Source: an uncultured Clostridia bacterium
GTDB taxonomy: Bacteria > Bacillota > Clostridia > Christensenellales > UBA1242
Assembly (NCBI GenBank): GCA_947589025.1
Contig: CANQAY010000004.1
Location: forward strand, 1-64,000
Length of the DNA: 64,000 nt
Direction of reading: 5' to 3'
Numbering within the stretch: position 1 is the first letter of the stretch; every line of letters starts with the position of its first letter. Below are positions 41,963 through 48,857 of the stretch, in pieces. The notes below the pieces were generated by a model that made no database searches, was not told where the DNA came from, and was given only the letters and a program-made list of their open reading frames with translations. A program made the position numbers and the translations under genes.

Positions 41963-42482
41963 AGGAACAACTATTGTTGCCGTTAAACGCGATGGCAAAA
42001 CCGTTATTGCGGGTGACGGACAAGTTACAATGGGTGAAAGCGTTATTTTTAAAAGCAGTGCACACAAAGTGCGCAGGCTTTTTGATGATAAAGTTGTGGT
42101 TGGCTTTGCAGGGGGCACTGCCGACGCATTTGCAATGTGTGAAGAATTTGAAAAAATGCTTAACAAATATAGTGGCAGTTTAATGCGCAGCGCGGTGGAA
42201 TATGCTAAAAGCATACGTTCTCAGGGGCATAATAACGCACAGGCGCTTATGATTGTTGCAGATAAAAGCACATTGCTTATTTTAACCTGCATGGGCGATG
42301 TTATTGAGCCTGACGATGGCATTTGTGCAATTGGCAGCGGTGGCAATTACGCTTTGGCTGCTGCAAAAGCACTTATAAAAAACACCAAATTGTCGGCTAA
42401 AGAAATTGCAATTAAATCTATGGAAATTGCAAGTGATATTTGCGTGTTTACAAACAGCAATTTTGTTGTGGAGGAAGTGTAA
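41949..42482 (+). CDS. hslV: ATP-dependent protease subunit HslV
   Basis: GTTIVAVKRDGKTVIAGDGQVTMG. Confidence 0.96.
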   Translation: MEQFKGTTIVAVKRDGKTVIAGDGQVTMGESVIFKSSAHKVRRLFDDKVVVGFAGGTADAFAMCEEFEKMLNKYSGSLMRSAVEYAKSIRSQGHNNAQALMIVADKSTLLILTCMGDVIEPDDGICAIGSGGNYALAAAKALIKNTKLSAKEIAIKSMEIASDICVFTNSNFVVEEV

Positions 42483-42483
42483 T

Positions 42484-43791
42484 ATGATGACATGTAAAGA
42501 AATTGTAACAAATTTGGATAAATATATTGTTGGACAAGCCAAGGCAAAACGCGCCGTGGCAATTGCGTTAAGAAACAGGTATAGGCGAAGCAAACTTCCA
42601 AAAGTGCTAAGTGACATAATTACACCAAAAAACATTATTTTAAAAGGCCCAACTGGTGTGGGCAAAACCGAAATTGCAAGAAGGCTTGCCAAACTTGTTA
42701 ACGCGCCATTTATTAAGGTGGAAGCGACAAAATATACCGAAGTTGGCTATGTTGGGCGCGATGTTGAAAGCATGGTAAGAGATTTGGTTGAAGCTTCGGT
42801 TCGAATTGTTAAAGCCGAGCAAACAGAAAAAATTAAAGATAAGGCAAGCGTTGTTGTAGATAAAAAAATAACAGATATTTTATATCCACTAAAAAAGGCC
42901 AACAAGCCTGAGGATATTGATACTGAGTTGTTTAGGCAAAATTTTTATGAAAATTATCAAAAGGGCTATTATAATAAAGACCAAATTGACATTGACGTGC
43001 GTGAGCAACCTAAACAAGTAAATTTGCTAGATGGCGTTGGTGCCGAAATTAACATTGGGCAAATTATGGGTGGTTTTATTAAAGCACCAAGGAAAATGAA
43101 ACGCATGACGGTTGAACGCGCGCGTGAAATTCTGTTGGAAGAAGAGTGTGACCGCCTAATAGACCCAGACAATTTAAACAAAGAAGCAATTTTCCGCGCT
43201 GAACAGGAAGGCATAATTTTTATAGACGAATTTGATAAAATTGCAGCCAAGAAAAATAACACCCAAGACGTTTCCCGTGAGGGTGTGCAACGTGACATTT
43301 TGCCAATTGTTGAAGGCAGTGTTGTTAACACCAAATATGGTGTAGTTCACACCGATTATATCCTATTTATTGCGGCTGGTGCATTCCATATTTCAAGTGT
43401 AAGTGACCTTATTCCTGAGTTGCAAGGCAGGTTCCCAATTCAAGTGGAGCTTAACAGCTTGGATAAAGAAGATTTTAAAAAGATATTAACAATTCCTGAA
43501 AATGCCATAACAACACAATATCAGCAATTGCTAAAAGTAGATAATGTTAACATAGAGTTTACGCCGGACGCCATTGACACTATTGCCGAACTTGCCTATG
43601 AAGAAAATGAAACAAACAAAAACATTGGGGCAAGGCGTTTGCAAACAATTATGGAAGCATTGCTTGAAGATATTTCATTTAACGCTAGCGACAATAATCC
43701 AATAGTAGATGTAAAAATCGATAAACCTTTTGTTGTTAACACAATGAAAGATTTAATCCGCACACACGACTTTAAAAAATATGTTTTATAA
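42484..43791 (+). CDS. hslU: ATP-dependent protease ATPase subunit HslU
   Basis: LDKYIVGQAKAKRAVAIALRNRYRR, GPTGVGKTEIARRLA. Confidence 0.97.
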   Translation: MMTCKEIVTNLDKYIVGQAKAKRAVAIALRNRYRRSKLPKVLSDIITPKNIILKGPTGVGKTEIARRLAKLVNAPFIKVEATKYTEVGYVGRDVESMVRDLVEASVRIVKAEQTEKIKDKASVVVDKKITDILYPLKKANKPEDIDTELFRQNFYENYQKGYYNKDQIDIDVREQPKQVNLLDGVGAEINIGQIMGGFIKAPRKMKRMTVERAREILLEEECDRLIDPDNLNKEAIFRAEQEGIIFIDEFDKIAAKKNNTQDVSREGVQRDILPIVEGSVVNTKYGVVHTDYILFIAAGAFHISSVSDLIPELQGRFPIQVELNSLDKEDFKKILTIPENAITTQYQQLLKVDNVNIEFTPDAIDTIAELAYEENETNKNIGARRLQTIMEALLEDISFNASDNNPIVDVKIDKPFVVNTMKDLIRTHDFKKYVL

Positions 43792-43792
43792 T

Positions 43793-45058
43793 ATGAACGA
43801 AATGGATGAAAATGAATTAATTAAAAAACTTAAAATTTTGCGCCAAGCATTTGAAAAATTTGGCGTTTCTTTCGATAGCAAAACAACCAACCAATTTTTA
43901 GAGCAAAAAAGAAATCATGTTGAACATGAAGAATTTAATGCTTCAAATGGCAAAACATATAGGCACACCACGGCAATTAAGCCAATTAAATTAACAATTA
44001 CGCCATTGCAAATTGAAAATTCGGGCTATGGTGCCAATTCTCATGAAAAATTTTTAGATTGGTTTTTGTATGAAAATGCATCTAACAACCCATTGGTTTG
44101 GGAAAATGTTGGCAAACCTTCTAATGCCATTAAAAATAGCTTTGTTAACACAAGAAACAACAACGGGCCTTTAGTTATGAATATTAATGGCCAAATTTTT
44201 AATGGTGAAGACGGCAATCATAGGTTGCTAACATTAATTCTTAACCAATTTATTGAATATAGTGCCGCCAAAACAAAAAGCGAAAAGGAAGCAGTTAACG
44301 AAAGATATGCAATGAGTTTGGATTGCAGCATGCCTTTTGATGCGGACATTGTTGATGCGCTTGAAAGGGTGCAAAAAACTGTTTCGCCGCAGAATGAAAA
44401 CTCTAACATTCCTTATTTAGTTCGAAATTATCGTGATGGCATGTGCAAAAACAAATATGATAATAAATGGGTGGCAAAGTTTAACCCCGAAACAAAATTG
44501 TTTGAATATGATTTTAATGGCGAACATTTTGTTGGCACGCAAACCGAATTGCTAAAGTTTTTAAAAACAAAAAAGCAATCCAATTTGCCTATTATGACAT
44601 GGGAATTTGATGGTTGTTATTATGTTTCTTGCTACAACCAAGTTTATAAATCAACAAATAAGCAAAAAATAGACAAAATGCTTGAAACTCTTAAGAAAAA
44701 AGTTAATGATATAGAAGATAATTCTTATTTGGAAATTAAAGATTTAGATACAAACAAATATGAATTGCACCGCGGTATCCGCAAATTTGATGAACCAGCA
44801 CTATCTAAAAATGTTGCAGAATTTGAACAATATTTGTTAGAAAAATATGCAGATATATTATCTTACAAAACAAAATATAATTTTGATTTATTAAAAAAGG
44901 ATTGCGATGATGCAATCAATTTTGACTGCGGCATTATTTTAGATGAATTAGTTTATTCTAACTTGTCTAATGAAGAGTTGGCAAATCTTAAACAAGTGTT
45001 TGACATGGAAGCATACGAAATTCAGCAAATAGAGGATGGGTTTAACGATACATATTGA
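43793..45058 (+). CDS. Hypothetical protein with ParB/Srx-like motif
   Basis: NGQIFNGEDGNHRLLTLILNQ resembles the ParB-type DGxHR motif; rest unrecognised. Confidence 0.6.
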   Translation: MNEMDENELIKKLKILRQAFEKFGVSFDSKTTNQFLEQKRNHVEHEEFNASNGKTYRHTTAIKPIKLTITPLQIENSGYGANSHEKFLDWFLYENASNNPLVWENVGKPSNAIKNSFVNTRNNNGPLVMNINGQIFNGEDGNHRLLTLILNQFIEYSAAKTKSEKEAVNERYAMSLDCSMPFDADIVDALERVQKTVSPQNENSNIPYLVRNYRDGMCKNKYDNKWVAKFNPETKLFEYDFNGEHFVGTQTELLKFLKTKKQSNLPIMTWEFDGCYYVSCYNQVYKSTNKQKIDKMLETLKKKVNDIEDNSYLEIKDLDTNKYELHRGIRKFDEPALSKNVAEFEQYLLEKYADILSYKTKYNFDLLKKDCDDAINFDCGIILDELVYSNLSNEELANLKQVFDMEAYEIQQIEDGFNDTY

Positions 45059-45750
45059 TGGAACTAAATTTAGATTATCTTAATAGATTTGCAATTATGT
45101 TGCGCCAAGAACAAATAAATAAGTTAATATCTGCCAACATAATTGTTTTTGGTGTGGGTGGCGTTGGCAGTGCGGTTGCCAATTTTTTGGTGCGCTCTGG
45201 CGTGCAAAACCTATCGGTGGTGGACTATGACACGATTGATACAACAAACATAAACAGGCAACTTGTTGCCAATTTAAACAATGTTGGCAAGCTAAAAGTT
45301 GATGAAATTAAAAAACAACTGAAAAGCTTAAACAAAAATTTAAAAATTAAAACATTTCCCATTAAATATGGCAGCGAAACAAAAAATTTAATAAATTTGC
45401 AAAATTATGATTATGTTGTTGATTGCATTGACGATTTAAACGCAAAAAAATTGCTTATTATTGAAGCTAATAACTGCAATGTGCCAATAATTTGTGCTAT
45501 GGGGGCGGGCAATAGATATAGCGAACTGCCCAACTTTGAAATTGCCGATATTTCTAAAACTAGTTACGACCCAATTGCCAAAATTTTGCGTAAGTTTTGT
45601 GCAAGTGAGGGAATAAAACATCTAAATGTTTGTTACACTAAACAAAAAGCAGTTAAAAATGATTGCAAAAAGGTGGCAAGTGTGGTATATTATCCTATAA
45701 GTATGGCTTGTGCCATTACTGCATTTGTTGTAAACAACATAATTAAGTGA
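45058..45750 (+). CDS. tcdA: tRNA threonylcarbamoyladenosine dehydratase / ThiF-family E1-like protein
   Basis: VFGVGGVGSAVANFLVRSGV, DTTNINRQ; start overlaps previous stop (TGATG). Confidence 0.88.
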   Translation: MELNLDYLNRFAIMLRQEQINKLISANIIVFGVGGVGSAVANFLVRSGVQNLSVVDYDTIDTTNINRQLVANLNNVGKLKVDEIKKQLKSLNKNLKIKTFPIKYGSETKNLINLQNYDYVVDCIDDLNAKKLLIIEANNCNVPIICAMGAGNRYSELPNFEIADISKTSYDPIAKILRKFCASEGIKHLNVCYTKQKAVKNDCKKVASVVYYPISMACAITAFVVNNIIK

Positions 45751-45757
45751 GGTTAAA

Positions 45758-46069
45758 ATGAAAGATTTAACAGAAAAAGATTTTGATAAAACAATAAAAA
45801 GCAAAAAGCTTTCAGTTATTGATTTTTTTGCAACTTGGTGCATGCCTTGCCGAATGTTAAAACCAATTTTAGAAAAAGTTGAACAAAATGTTAAAGATGC
45901 CAATTTCTATTCACTTGATATTGACGAAAATGACGAAATAGCCAAACGCTATAGGGTGTTTAGCGTGCCAACAGTTATCTGTTTTATGAATGGTGAAATT
46001 GTAGATAGTTTGGTGGGTTTAAGCAGTTATGACGAGGTTATAGATTTTGTAAATAGATGTAAAGGTTAG
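45758..46069 (+). CDS. trxA: Thioredoxin family protein
   Basis: DFFATWCMPCRMLKPILE, RVFSVPTVICF. Confidence 0.9.
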   Translation: MKDLTEKDFDKTIKSKKLSVIDFFATWCMPCRMLKPILEKVEQNVKDANFYSLDIDENDEIAKRYRVFSVPTVICFMNGEIVDSLVGLSSYDEVIDFVNRCKG

Positions 46070-46219: not shown

Positions 46220-47407
46220 ATGGATAAAATTTATTTAGATAACGCATCCACCACAAGCCTAAGTGCAGAAGTTTTAAACGCCATGATGCCAGTGTTAACT
46301 GACAATTTTGGCAACACTTCATCCATACATTCTTTTGGCAGAGAGGCTAGTGCTGTGGTTGATGCAAGTAGAGATTTAATTGCTGAAACAATTAATGCAA
46401 ATTCAAATGAAATTTATTTTACCTCAAGCGGAAGTGAGGCAAACACAATGGCAATTATTGGCATTGCAATGGCAAACCGTAACCGCGGCAACCACATTAT
46501 TACAAGCAAAATTGAACACCCATCAATTTTAAACGCTTGCAAATTTTTGGAAAGAAACGGCTACGAAGTTACCTATCTTGATGTAGACAAAAACGGCTTT
46601 ATCCGTTTTGCAGATTTGCTTCGCTACATTAAAAACACCACAATTTTGGTGTCTATTATGGGCGCAAATAACGAGTTGGGCACTATTCAAAACCTTAAAG
46701 CAATTGCCCAAACAGCACATGAAAAGGGCGCAATTTTCCACACCGATGCAGTGCAACTTTATGGCAACATGCAGTTAGATGTTGAAGAAATAGGCATAGA
46801 TGCAATGACAATTTCTGCACACAAAATTTATGGCCCTAAAGGGGTTGGTTGCTTATATGTTTCTAACGGCATTAAGGTGGACCCAATTATATTTGGCGGA
46901 AATCAAGAAAGGGGCAAACGCGGTGGCACAACCAACACGGCAGGCATTGTTGGCTTTGCAAAAGCTTGCGAAATTGCAAATAGAGATATGCGCACAAACA
47001 ACCACAAATTGCGTGAATTAAGTGAATATTTTGTGTCTAAATTAACCGAAATGGTTGAAAACATTACAATAAACGCAAATGTAAGGCAAAAACTTCCACA
47101 AATAATTTCAGTTGCATTCACCGGCGTTGATGGTGAAAGTTTGCTTACTAAATTAGATTTAAACGGCGTTGCAGTTTCTACCGGCAGCGCTTGCACAAGC
47201 AACAGCTTGGCAGTATCACACGTTATGTCTGCCATTGGGCTTAAAAATGACGATGCTAAAAGCACCATTCGCTTTAGCCTTGGCAAAAACAATAGTTATG
47301 AAGAAATAGATACAGCACTTAACATAATTAAAAAATCGGTAGACGAATTGCGTGCCTATTCCTCAACCTATTCGGCAAAAACTCGTAAAAGAAAGGGGGA
47401 TAAATAA
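46220..47407 (+). CDS. nifS: Cysteine desulfurase (NifS/IscS family)
   Basis: YLDNASTT, TSSGSEANTMAI, ISAHKIYGPKGVG, catalytic STGSACTS. Confidence 0.95.
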   Translation: MDKIYLDNASTTSLSAEVLNAMMPVLTDNFGNTSSIHSFGREASAVVDASRDLIAETINANSNEIYFTSSGSEANTMAIIGIAMANRNRGNHIITSKIEHPSILNACKFLERNGYEVTYLDVDKNGFIRFADLLRYIKNTTILVSIMGANNELGTIQNLKAIAQTAHEKGAIFHTDAVQLYGNMQLDVEEIGIDAMTISAHKIYGPKGVGCLYVSNGIKVDPIIFGGNQERGKRGGTTNTAGIVGFAKACEIANRDMRTNNHKLRELSEYFVSKLTEMVENITINANVRQKLPQIISVAFTGVDGESLLTKLDLNGVAVSTGSACTSNSLAVSHVMSAIGLKNDDAKSTIRFSLGKNNSYEEIDTALNIIKKSVDELRAYSSTYSAKTRKRKGDK

Positions 47408-47409
47408 CT

Positions 47410-47787
47410 ATGTATTCAAATGAAGTTTTAAAAATATTTTCTAATCCATTAAATGCGGGCAGAATTGTTAAAGCTGAAGGCATTGCAGAAAATGTTAATG
47501 CCGACAACACCGCAAATGTTGAATTTTCTCTTAGAATTGAATCTAACGTTATTACCGATGCAAAATTTCGCGCACAGGCTAACCCATATATAATTGCCGT
47601 GTGTGACACAATTGCCGGCCTTATAAAAAACAAAAAGGCCAATATGCTTTCGTTAGACGAATTTCAAATTAAATCATCACTTGGTGAAAATAACCCTACC
47701 GACATTCAATTTTGCATAGATTGTGTTAAATTGGCAGTTAATGATTATGTAGAAAAAATGGCAAAATCTAGCAAAACAAAAGCCTAA
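47410..47787 (+). CDS. Divergent NifU/IscU-like scaffold protein lacking two canonical Cys ligands
   Basis: MYSNEVLKIFSNPLNAGRI...ITDAKFRAQANPY...FCIDCVKLAVNDY aligns to the IscU frame; downstream of nifS. Confidence 0.8.
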   Translation: MYSNEVLKIFSNPLNAGRIVKAEGIAENVNADNTANVEFSLRIESNVITDAKFRAQANPYIIAVCDTIAGLIKNKKANMLSLDEFQIKSSLGENNPTDIQFCIDCVKLAVNDYVEKMAKSSKTKA

Positions 47788-47836: not shown

Positions 47837-48025
47837 ATGAAAGAATTATTAATTGGCATGGGCATTGGTTTTGTTGTTGGTGCCATCACTTGCAAAGTAA
47901 ACAAACCGGTTGCCGATACCGTTGAAAAAGGTGTTGAAAAGGGCAAAGAAATCATTGAAGATATTAAAGATGAAATTGAAACCCAAACCAAAAAACAAAA
48001 AAAACAAAAGAAAAATGCGGATTAA
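47837..48025 (+). CDS. Small YtxH-like membrane protein
   Basis: Single TM LLIGMGIGFVVGAITCKV plus charged Lys/Glu tail. Confidence 0.75.
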   Translation: MKELLIGMGIGFVVGAITCKVNKPVADTVEKGVEKGKEIIEDIKDEIETQTKKQKKQKKNAD

Positions 48026-48093: not shown

Positions 48094-48507
48094 ATGAAGG
48101 CAATGGGAATAGATTATGGCTTAAAGCGCATTGGCATTGCGTTTAGTGATGAAACCAAATTTTTGGCAAGCCCTTACATCGTTTATCACACCCAAGGGGA
48201 AGAAAAAGATTTGCAATTTTTGGCCAATTTAATTAATTTAAATAAGGTTGATGAAATTGTGTGTGGCCTGCCGCTAAACACAAAAGGTGAAGAAGAGGCA
48301 ATTGCCTTAAAAACTAGGGGTTTTATGGCTAAATTAATGGCAATAACCCAAATTAAACCCGTGTTCGTAGATGAGCGAATGTCTAGCGTTATGGCAGAAG
48401 AATATTTATCCGAGCGCGAAAAAGATTGGCGCAAAAGAAAAGAAAAATTGGATGCTGTTGCCGCCTCAATAATTTTGCAAGATTATTTAGATAATAAAAG
48501 GAGATAA
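48094..48507 (+). CDS. ruvX: Holliday junction resolvase-like RuvX (YqgF)
   Basis: MGIDYGLKRIGIAFSDE, GLPLNTKGEE, DERMSS. Confidence 0.95.
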   Translation: MKAMGIDYGLKRIGIAFSDETKFLASPYIVYHTQGEEKDLQFLANLINLNKVDEIVCGLPLNTKGEEEAIALKTRGFMAKLMAITQIKPVFVDERMSSVMAEEYLSEREKDWRKRKEKLDAVAASIILQDYLDNKRR

Positions 48508-48509
48508 TT

Positions 48510-48857
48510 ATGAAAGATTTAAGGGATGACCTTAACTTAAAAAACAAAAAACTAAAGGCAATGGACCCAATTGAACAAATTTTGGATGAAGAAAATTACG
48601 ATAACGTTATTCTTTATGACCCTGAAAAAAAACCTATTGAGTTTGAACAAGTGGCAGTAATTCCAGTTGACAAACCAACTGGGGAACAAACACTTTACAC
48701 AATTATGATTCCTGTAACTCCAATGCAAGGTGTAAGCGAGGGCGAGGGCGTTGTTTTTAAAATTGACGAACAAACCCGCGATATTGAAGTGGTTAATGAT
48801 GAAAAGGTTATTGATAAAGTGCTTGAAATTTACCAAAAACTTGTTGAAGAGGGTTAA
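48510..48857 (+). CDS. DUF1292 family protein
   Basis: FEQVAVIPVDKPTGEQTLYTIMIPVTPMQGVSEGEGVVFKID; follows ruvX. Confidence 0.85.
   Translation: MKDLRDDLNLKNKKLKAMDPIEQILDEENYDNVILYDPEKKPIEFEQVAVIPVDKPTGEQTLYTIMIPVTPMQGVSEGEGVVFKIDEQTRDIEVVNDEKVIDKVLEIYQKLVEEG

Follow-up and report, generated by a model that had tools for sequence, protein, structure and literature searches.

The window analyzed here, a 64,000-nucleotide stretch of DNA, carries a nifS gene (nifS2) and a small nifU-like gene (nifU2) whose start lies 2 bases past the nifS2 stop. The features of the locus are collected in Table 1. The gene order hslV-hslU-(thiF)-trx-(rrf2)-nifS-nifU-(ytxH)-ruvX-DUF1292-rpsB is shared by many genera out of more than 40 in the family; the open reading frames (ORFs) of the pair are intact in nearly all relatives, and the pair is still present in reduced genomes of ∼1 Mb. 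Between hslU and thiF lies a 425-amino acid ORF (43781-45058) for which neither Pfam nor NCBIfam returned a match. The PLP Lys, the active-site His and the catalytic Cys are all present in NifS2 and across the window's genus, and the intact PLP Lys and SACTS loop reported in the earlier note were confirmed in the translation and in the alignment.

Table 1. Genes and residues of the nifS2-nifU2 locus (positions in the window).
Feature	Coordinates	Strand	Evidence
HslU (ORF as called), anchors the conserved locus on the left	42406..43791	+	ORF, locus comparison
ThiF/TcdA-like E1 adenylyltransferase, in the conserved neighborhood	45055..45750	+	profile matches, locus comparison
Thioredoxin gene; adjoins nifS in most family loci	45758..46069	+	Pfam, locus comparison
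nifS2, encodes a 395-aa cysteine desulfurase that retains its PLP Lys and its catalytic Cys	46220..47407	+	ORF, profile matches, alignment
NifS2 Lys311 (IscU-docking face; position 316 in IscS), a Lys confined to the window's genus group	47150..47152	+	alignment
NifS2 catalytic Cys325 (IscS Cys328)	47192..47194	+	translation, alignment
NifS2 Glu376 (IscS Arg379, IscU-docking face); K/R in nearly all other family members	47345..47347	+	alignment
nifU2, predicted IscU-fold protein lacking any cluster ligand, 125 aa	47410..47787	+	ORF, Pfam, alignments, fold model
Asn33-Thr34-Ala35, replaces IscU Cys37-Gly38-Asp39	47506..47514	+	family alignments
Glu38, where IscU has the desulfurase-docking Lys42; a Glu at 14/14 genus and 3/3 AT-hook loci	47521..47523	+	alignment; PMC2854127
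RAQANPY block (residues 54-60), invariant; replaces docking strand K59-G64 and Cys63	47569..47589	+	genus alignments
Cys65, new invariant Cys (IscU Ser70)	47602..47604	+	genus alignments
Cys102-x-x-Cys105, new invariant pair opening the last helix (IscU Ala110, Ala113)	47713..47724	+	alignments and model
Small protein resembling YtxH, encoded between nifU2 and ruvX	47837..48025	+	ORF, Pfam, locus comparison
RuvX, anchors the conserved locus on the right	48097..48507	+	Pfam, locus comparison
DUF1292 protein, right anchor	48510..48857	+	Pfam, locus comparison

The Pfam NifU_N family spans the entire NifU2 (E=3.2e-10, 40.7 bits). A fold model built with AlphaFold2 from 22 sequences had a pLDDT of 91.5, with helices and strands in the same order as in IscU. 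When this model was searched with Foldseek, the top matches were all IscU proteins; the best was Aquifex IscU, and the TM-score to 2z7e and 7c8m was 0.86. The end-to-end alignment with IscU-type proteins described in the earlier note was thus borne out by both the full-length Pfam match and the predicted fold, which held when modeling was used as an attempt to refute it. We conclude that nifU2 is a real gene and that its product has, as modeled, the IscU fold.

The cluster residues of E. coli IscU are Cys37, Asp39, Cys63, His105 and Cys106, and NifU2 lacks every one of them (E. coli numbering, from reference sequences checked at the key positions only). Ligand positions were placed by HMMER alignments to solved IscU chains and by MAFFT family alignments. 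N33 and A35 occupy the positions of C37 and D39, and N58 that of C63; opposite the canonical His-Cys-Ser, HMMER and MAFFT place either a deletion or Asp98. The His105 and Lys103 that precede the third IscU cysteine are both gone in 14/14 loci of the window's genus. The earlier note had claimed that two of the three cluster cysteines and the Asp were lost while the third cysteine was retained. Those losses stand, as does the replacement of the CGD and FxTYGCGSAIA segments (by N33-T34-A35 and N58-P59), but the third cysteine is lost too, because Cys102 and Cys105 align with IscU alanines (Ala110/Ala113), one helical turn off. The view that NifU2 would not bind a cluster in the canonical way agrees with the absence of these ligands. 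On TIGR03419 (clostridial NifU), NifU2 scored 45.9 bits against a cut-off of 187.9, and the other NifU of the genome 211.7.

Cys65, Cys102, Cys105 and the RAQANPY block do not vary among the aligned congeners, which form the main group of the genus. The NifU-like domain of three sister species lacks all three cysteines, and cysteine positions vary among other degenerate NifU lineages. A sequencing error as the cause of ligand loss was ruled out, since the same form occurs in ∼30 congeneric metagenome-assembled genomes (MAGs), and no relative within the window's genus restored the ligands at the nifS2-nifU2 locus. The form is also found in named Clostridia MAGs, including two of Candidatus Onthoplasma (Christensenellales). 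NifU2 is under purifying selection: the closest pairs have a dN/dS of 0.04-0.06, the higher values of more distant pairs being less reliable as their silent sites are near saturation.

The search for another scaffold that had been proposed earlier was positive. Contig C1 of the same genome carries a canonical Rrf2-NifS-NifU operon with CGD, GCG and HCS intact, which rules out NifU2 as the sole scaffold of this cell; a different scaffold chemistry for NifU2, one of the roles first considered, is not needed. SufB was not found in this genome, either by Pfam search or with a SufB protein query. Four cysteine desulfurases scored above 190 bits, namely NifS1, NifS2, a NifZ beside ThiI and a SufS-like enzyme. 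The neighbor of the last is a DUF3343-like protein; at L009:3868-5335 a SufS/EF2568-type desulfurase is divergent from such a gene (Se/S carrier-like; the DUF3343 assignment was made by eye).

Among 34 congeneric genomes, the NifU2 form was detected in 33, three of them as fusions to AT-hook repeats. Of these genomes, 17 have SufBD and 10 have a canonical NifU, with zero overlap (p=3e-4). Half of the genus carries a minimal SufC-SufB, never alongside canonical NifU; examples are L217:2554-4180 and L218:2967-4580, where SufB is ∼305 amino acids long and SMS-like. Radical-SAM proteins are encoded in 34/34, so that Fe-S clusters must be required. Seven of the 34, all MAGs, have neither scaffold, and three of these are at least 90% complete (G071, G123 and G155); a SufB protein query, run without the positive control that the genus-wide Pfam search had, returned no SufB from these three.

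To place this loss in the family, the NifU at this locus was scored as canonical above and degenerate below a 130-bit line. A canonical NifU stands at the locus in 18/22 genomes without another scaffold, versus 19/104 genomes with one (p=2e-8; more than 40 genera). Since the genomes in this count are related, a NifS tree was added. It contains 15 state changes; well-supported branches force at least 11 of them. An independent-pairs sign test on the tree gave a median p=0.03. The tree changes and this test indicate that NifU lost its ligands many times, mostly with another scaffold present. Judged from these sequences, related gut bacteria appear to have retired the same scaffold at least 11 times, mostly where another cluster builder exists. 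Four incomplete MAGs (G071, G123, G054 and G132) have a degenerate NifU and yielded no other scaffold. Several degenerate NifUs of other genera (L151, L154, L155, L156, L170 and L194) are extended at the C-terminus by a long tail of low complexity, closed by a short motif that looks helical.

Departures were also observed in NifS. In genus g6 (three species) the active-site His is Asp, Val or Asn replaces the PLP Lys and the loop with the catalytic Cys is deleted, the ORFs being intact (L147:2677-3969, L254:2077-3282 and L255:2499-3668). The catalytic Cys is Ser in genus g42 (four species; loci L197, L198, L256 and L258) and Phe in G056 (L182), where the PLP Lys is lost as well. The dN/dS of NifS is 0.05-0.11 in g42, which denotes strong purifying selection, and 0.21-0.33 in g6. 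In several pairs the value for NifU exceeds that for NifS, reaching 0.37-0.43 for g6 NifU. The three sister species of the window's genus mentioned above have a NifU domain followed by a 400-550-amino acid tail of 8-12 AT-hook repeats, with Pfam matches to both domains: L206:2723-4357 (G154), L207:4010-6061 (G151) and L208:367-2364 (G150). The repeat is EKRGRGRPRK... and a GGIEDLLKALL sequence is conserved at the C-terminus; elsewhere in the genus no genome has more than 2 motifs of the AT-hook type. A NifU-MnmA fusion, considered for these long ORFs, was discarded once the extensions proved to be AT-hook tails.

We then asked what has been kept, using the residues through which E. coli IscS and IscU touch in their complex (PMC2854127). 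In 32 degenerate NifUs from outside the window's genus the docking residues are largely retained (Y3 in 30/32, F11 in 30/32, K42 in 31/32 and K103 in 25/32), and the ligands of the same proteins are kept far less often (C37 in 11/32, D39 in 17/32, C63 in 7/32, H105 in 2/32 and C106 in 9/32). In the window's genus the docking face is instead remodeled on both partners. At 14/14 loci NifS2 has changed from K/R to Glu at position 379 and from M/L to Lys at position 316. Fixed, genus-specific changes of NifS2 fall in 6/22 IscU-docking columns versus 22/363 others (p=0.003), an enrichment to be read with the C-terminal part of NifS being a variable stretch. No enrichment was seen on the TusA face (2/38), nor on the IscU face of NifS in four other family groups. 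In NifU2, 6/11 docking columns are changed versus 17/98 elsewhere (p=0.01). Changes on both sides of the docking face are read as those of a partner that is still bound, and we infer from this indirect evidence that NifU2 probably binds NifS2 physically. The finding of the earlier note that a desulfurase with intact active-site residues stands beside a non-canonical, predicted IscU-fold partner is upheld by the alignments.

On balance, it is probable that NifU2 is a former scaffold kept as a dedicated, NifS2-binding desulfurase accessory, acting through a remodeled docking face and serving a sulfur pathway other than Fe-S assembly, with MnmA the likeliest client. NifU2 would have been an IscU/MisU-type scaffold at the ancestral nifS-nifU locus of the family. 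Cluster assembly would have passed to another scaffold, here the second canonical NifS-NifU, and in relatives the minimal SufC-SufB or a full SUF system; every cluster ligand of NifU2 would then have been lost, and docking to NifS2 retained through the altered face. Placed in the IscU site of NifS2, NifU2 may tune its activity or steer its persulfide, and in the window's genus Cys65, Cys102 and Cys105 may form a relay, redox or metal site. The absence of K103 from NifU2 counts against this accessory role, as reversal of K103 in E. coli IscU abolishes IscS binding (PMC2854127).

The pathway served is probably tRNA thiolation, with sulfur flowing to 2-thiouridine synthesis by MnmA. This is the weakest step of the mechanism, and it is suggested by elimination and by the rule that in Gram-positives each desulfurase tends to own a dedicated acceptor, as in YrvO-MnmA for s2U (PMC5372745). 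In this genome NifZ is paired with ThiI, and mnmA sits by itself on another contig with no dedicated desulfurase. YrvO-MnmA works without a third protein (PMC5372745), and mnmA was beside the nifS-nifU pair in none of ∼95 family loci read. The sole tRNA-thiolation genes seen beside the pair are NifZ-ThiI, immediately upstream of nifS2-nifU2 at L164:459-4389 (G016). Because the NifS of a few relatives lacks the catalytic Cys, and in some cases the PLP Lys, sulfur delivery cannot be the function in every lineage.

Among the other readings, a sulfur relay, in which Cys65, Cys102 or Cys105 would take the NifS2 persulfide and hand it on in a SufU-like role reached independently, is unlikely. The invariance of the three cysteines in the main group speaks for it, and SufU is a precedent of an IscU-fold protein turned sulfurtransferase (PMC10216065); as a common function it is opposed by the AT-hook sister species, which lack these cysteines, and by the differing positions in other degenerate lineages. 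Of the roles first proposed, that of partner or regulator fares better; a relay through the supposedly retained cysteine cannot be general. It is just as doubtful that NifS-NifU has turned into a complex with a conserved structural or regulatory role, possibly linked to nucleic acids, in place of both Fe-S assembly and sulfur transfer; loss of the NifU ligands and of the NifS Cys (in some the PLP Lys) in genes that are still paired, together with the array of AT-hooks, motifs of a DNA-binding type, led to this reading.

Slow decay, with NifU2 and in places NifS2 drifting to loss and functionless after another scaffold took over, is improbable. It would account for the repeated loss of ligands to differing degrees, for the NifS active-site residues gone in several lineages and for NifU evolving faster than NifS in several pairs, of which g6 is one. 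Against it, the ORFs are intact in nearly all relatives, the RAQANPY block and the new cysteines are invariant, close NifU2 pairs and even the pseudo-NifS of g42 have the low dN/dS given above, and the pair persists in the reduced genomes. Still less probable is that NifS2-NifU2 supplies sulfide to SufC-SufB, the adjacent thioredoxin reducing the persulfide. The SMS system (SmsCB) can take sulfide as a sulfur source (PMC12192291), trx adjoins nifS at most loci, and SufCB and NifU2 occur together in half of the genus; this genome, however, has only canonical NifS-NifU and no SufB and yet keeps NifU2, and some SufBD-bearing family members have a NifS without the catalytic Cys. That NifU2 acts as an alternative scaffold or carries metal through Cys65, Cys102 and Cys105 or other residues is very unlikely: the cysteines are conserved and G071 and G123 yielded no other scaffold, but both are incomplete MAGs, a further scaffold accompanies the NifU2 form in most genomes that carry it, and the sister species are devoid of all three cysteines.

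The preferred reading, that of a desulfurase accessory, sets NifU2 apart from known systems. It resembles IscU, clostridial NifU and MisU in fold, length, place directly after nifS and descent at the same locus, and differs from them in that all ligands are gone and that its TIGR03419 score is far under the cut-off. The sulfur acceptors TusA, CsdE and SufE may be a parallel, in that NifU2 too would be a NifS-bound accessory directing sulfur; they belong to other families, the NifU2 relatives share no conserved acceptor Cys, and NifU2 would be expected to bind at the IscU site. SufU, the Zn-dependent sulfurtransferase partner of SufS, likewise has an IscU fold that has moved past scaffolding to serve a desulfurase (PMC10216065). 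SufU carries a 21-23-amino acid insertion between its second and third Cys (PMC10216065); NifU2 lacks it and is shorter than IscU in that region, lacks the Zn ligands (Cys, Asp, Cys) and the acceptor Cys, has a NifS-type partner, and scored 16.7 bits on the SufU profile against a 92.5-bit cut-off. The YrvO-MnmA and NifZ-ThiI pairs of Gram-positives belong, as here, to genomes in which several desulfurases serve one client apiece (PMC5372745), and NifZ-ThiI is present in this genome; the partner of NifS2 differs in being a former scaffold, and mnmA is not adjacent. By profile and alignment NifU2 would be a ligand-less NifS partner within the NifU superfamily, outside SufU and outside NifU/IscU as defined by ligands and score. 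We found no precedent for ligand-less IscU homologues in the open-access literature.

One consequence is that a nifU annotation drawn from a family match does not denote a working scaffold, as none of the NifUs read at this locus in the genus carries the ligands. These bacteria may be regarded as a natural experiment that parts two functions of an IscU-type scaffold, desulfurase docking, which would be kept, and cluster holding, which is lost, mostly where another scaffold is present. They offer a ready set of ligand-free scaffolds with which to ask what non-cluster service a scaffold may render to its desulfurase.
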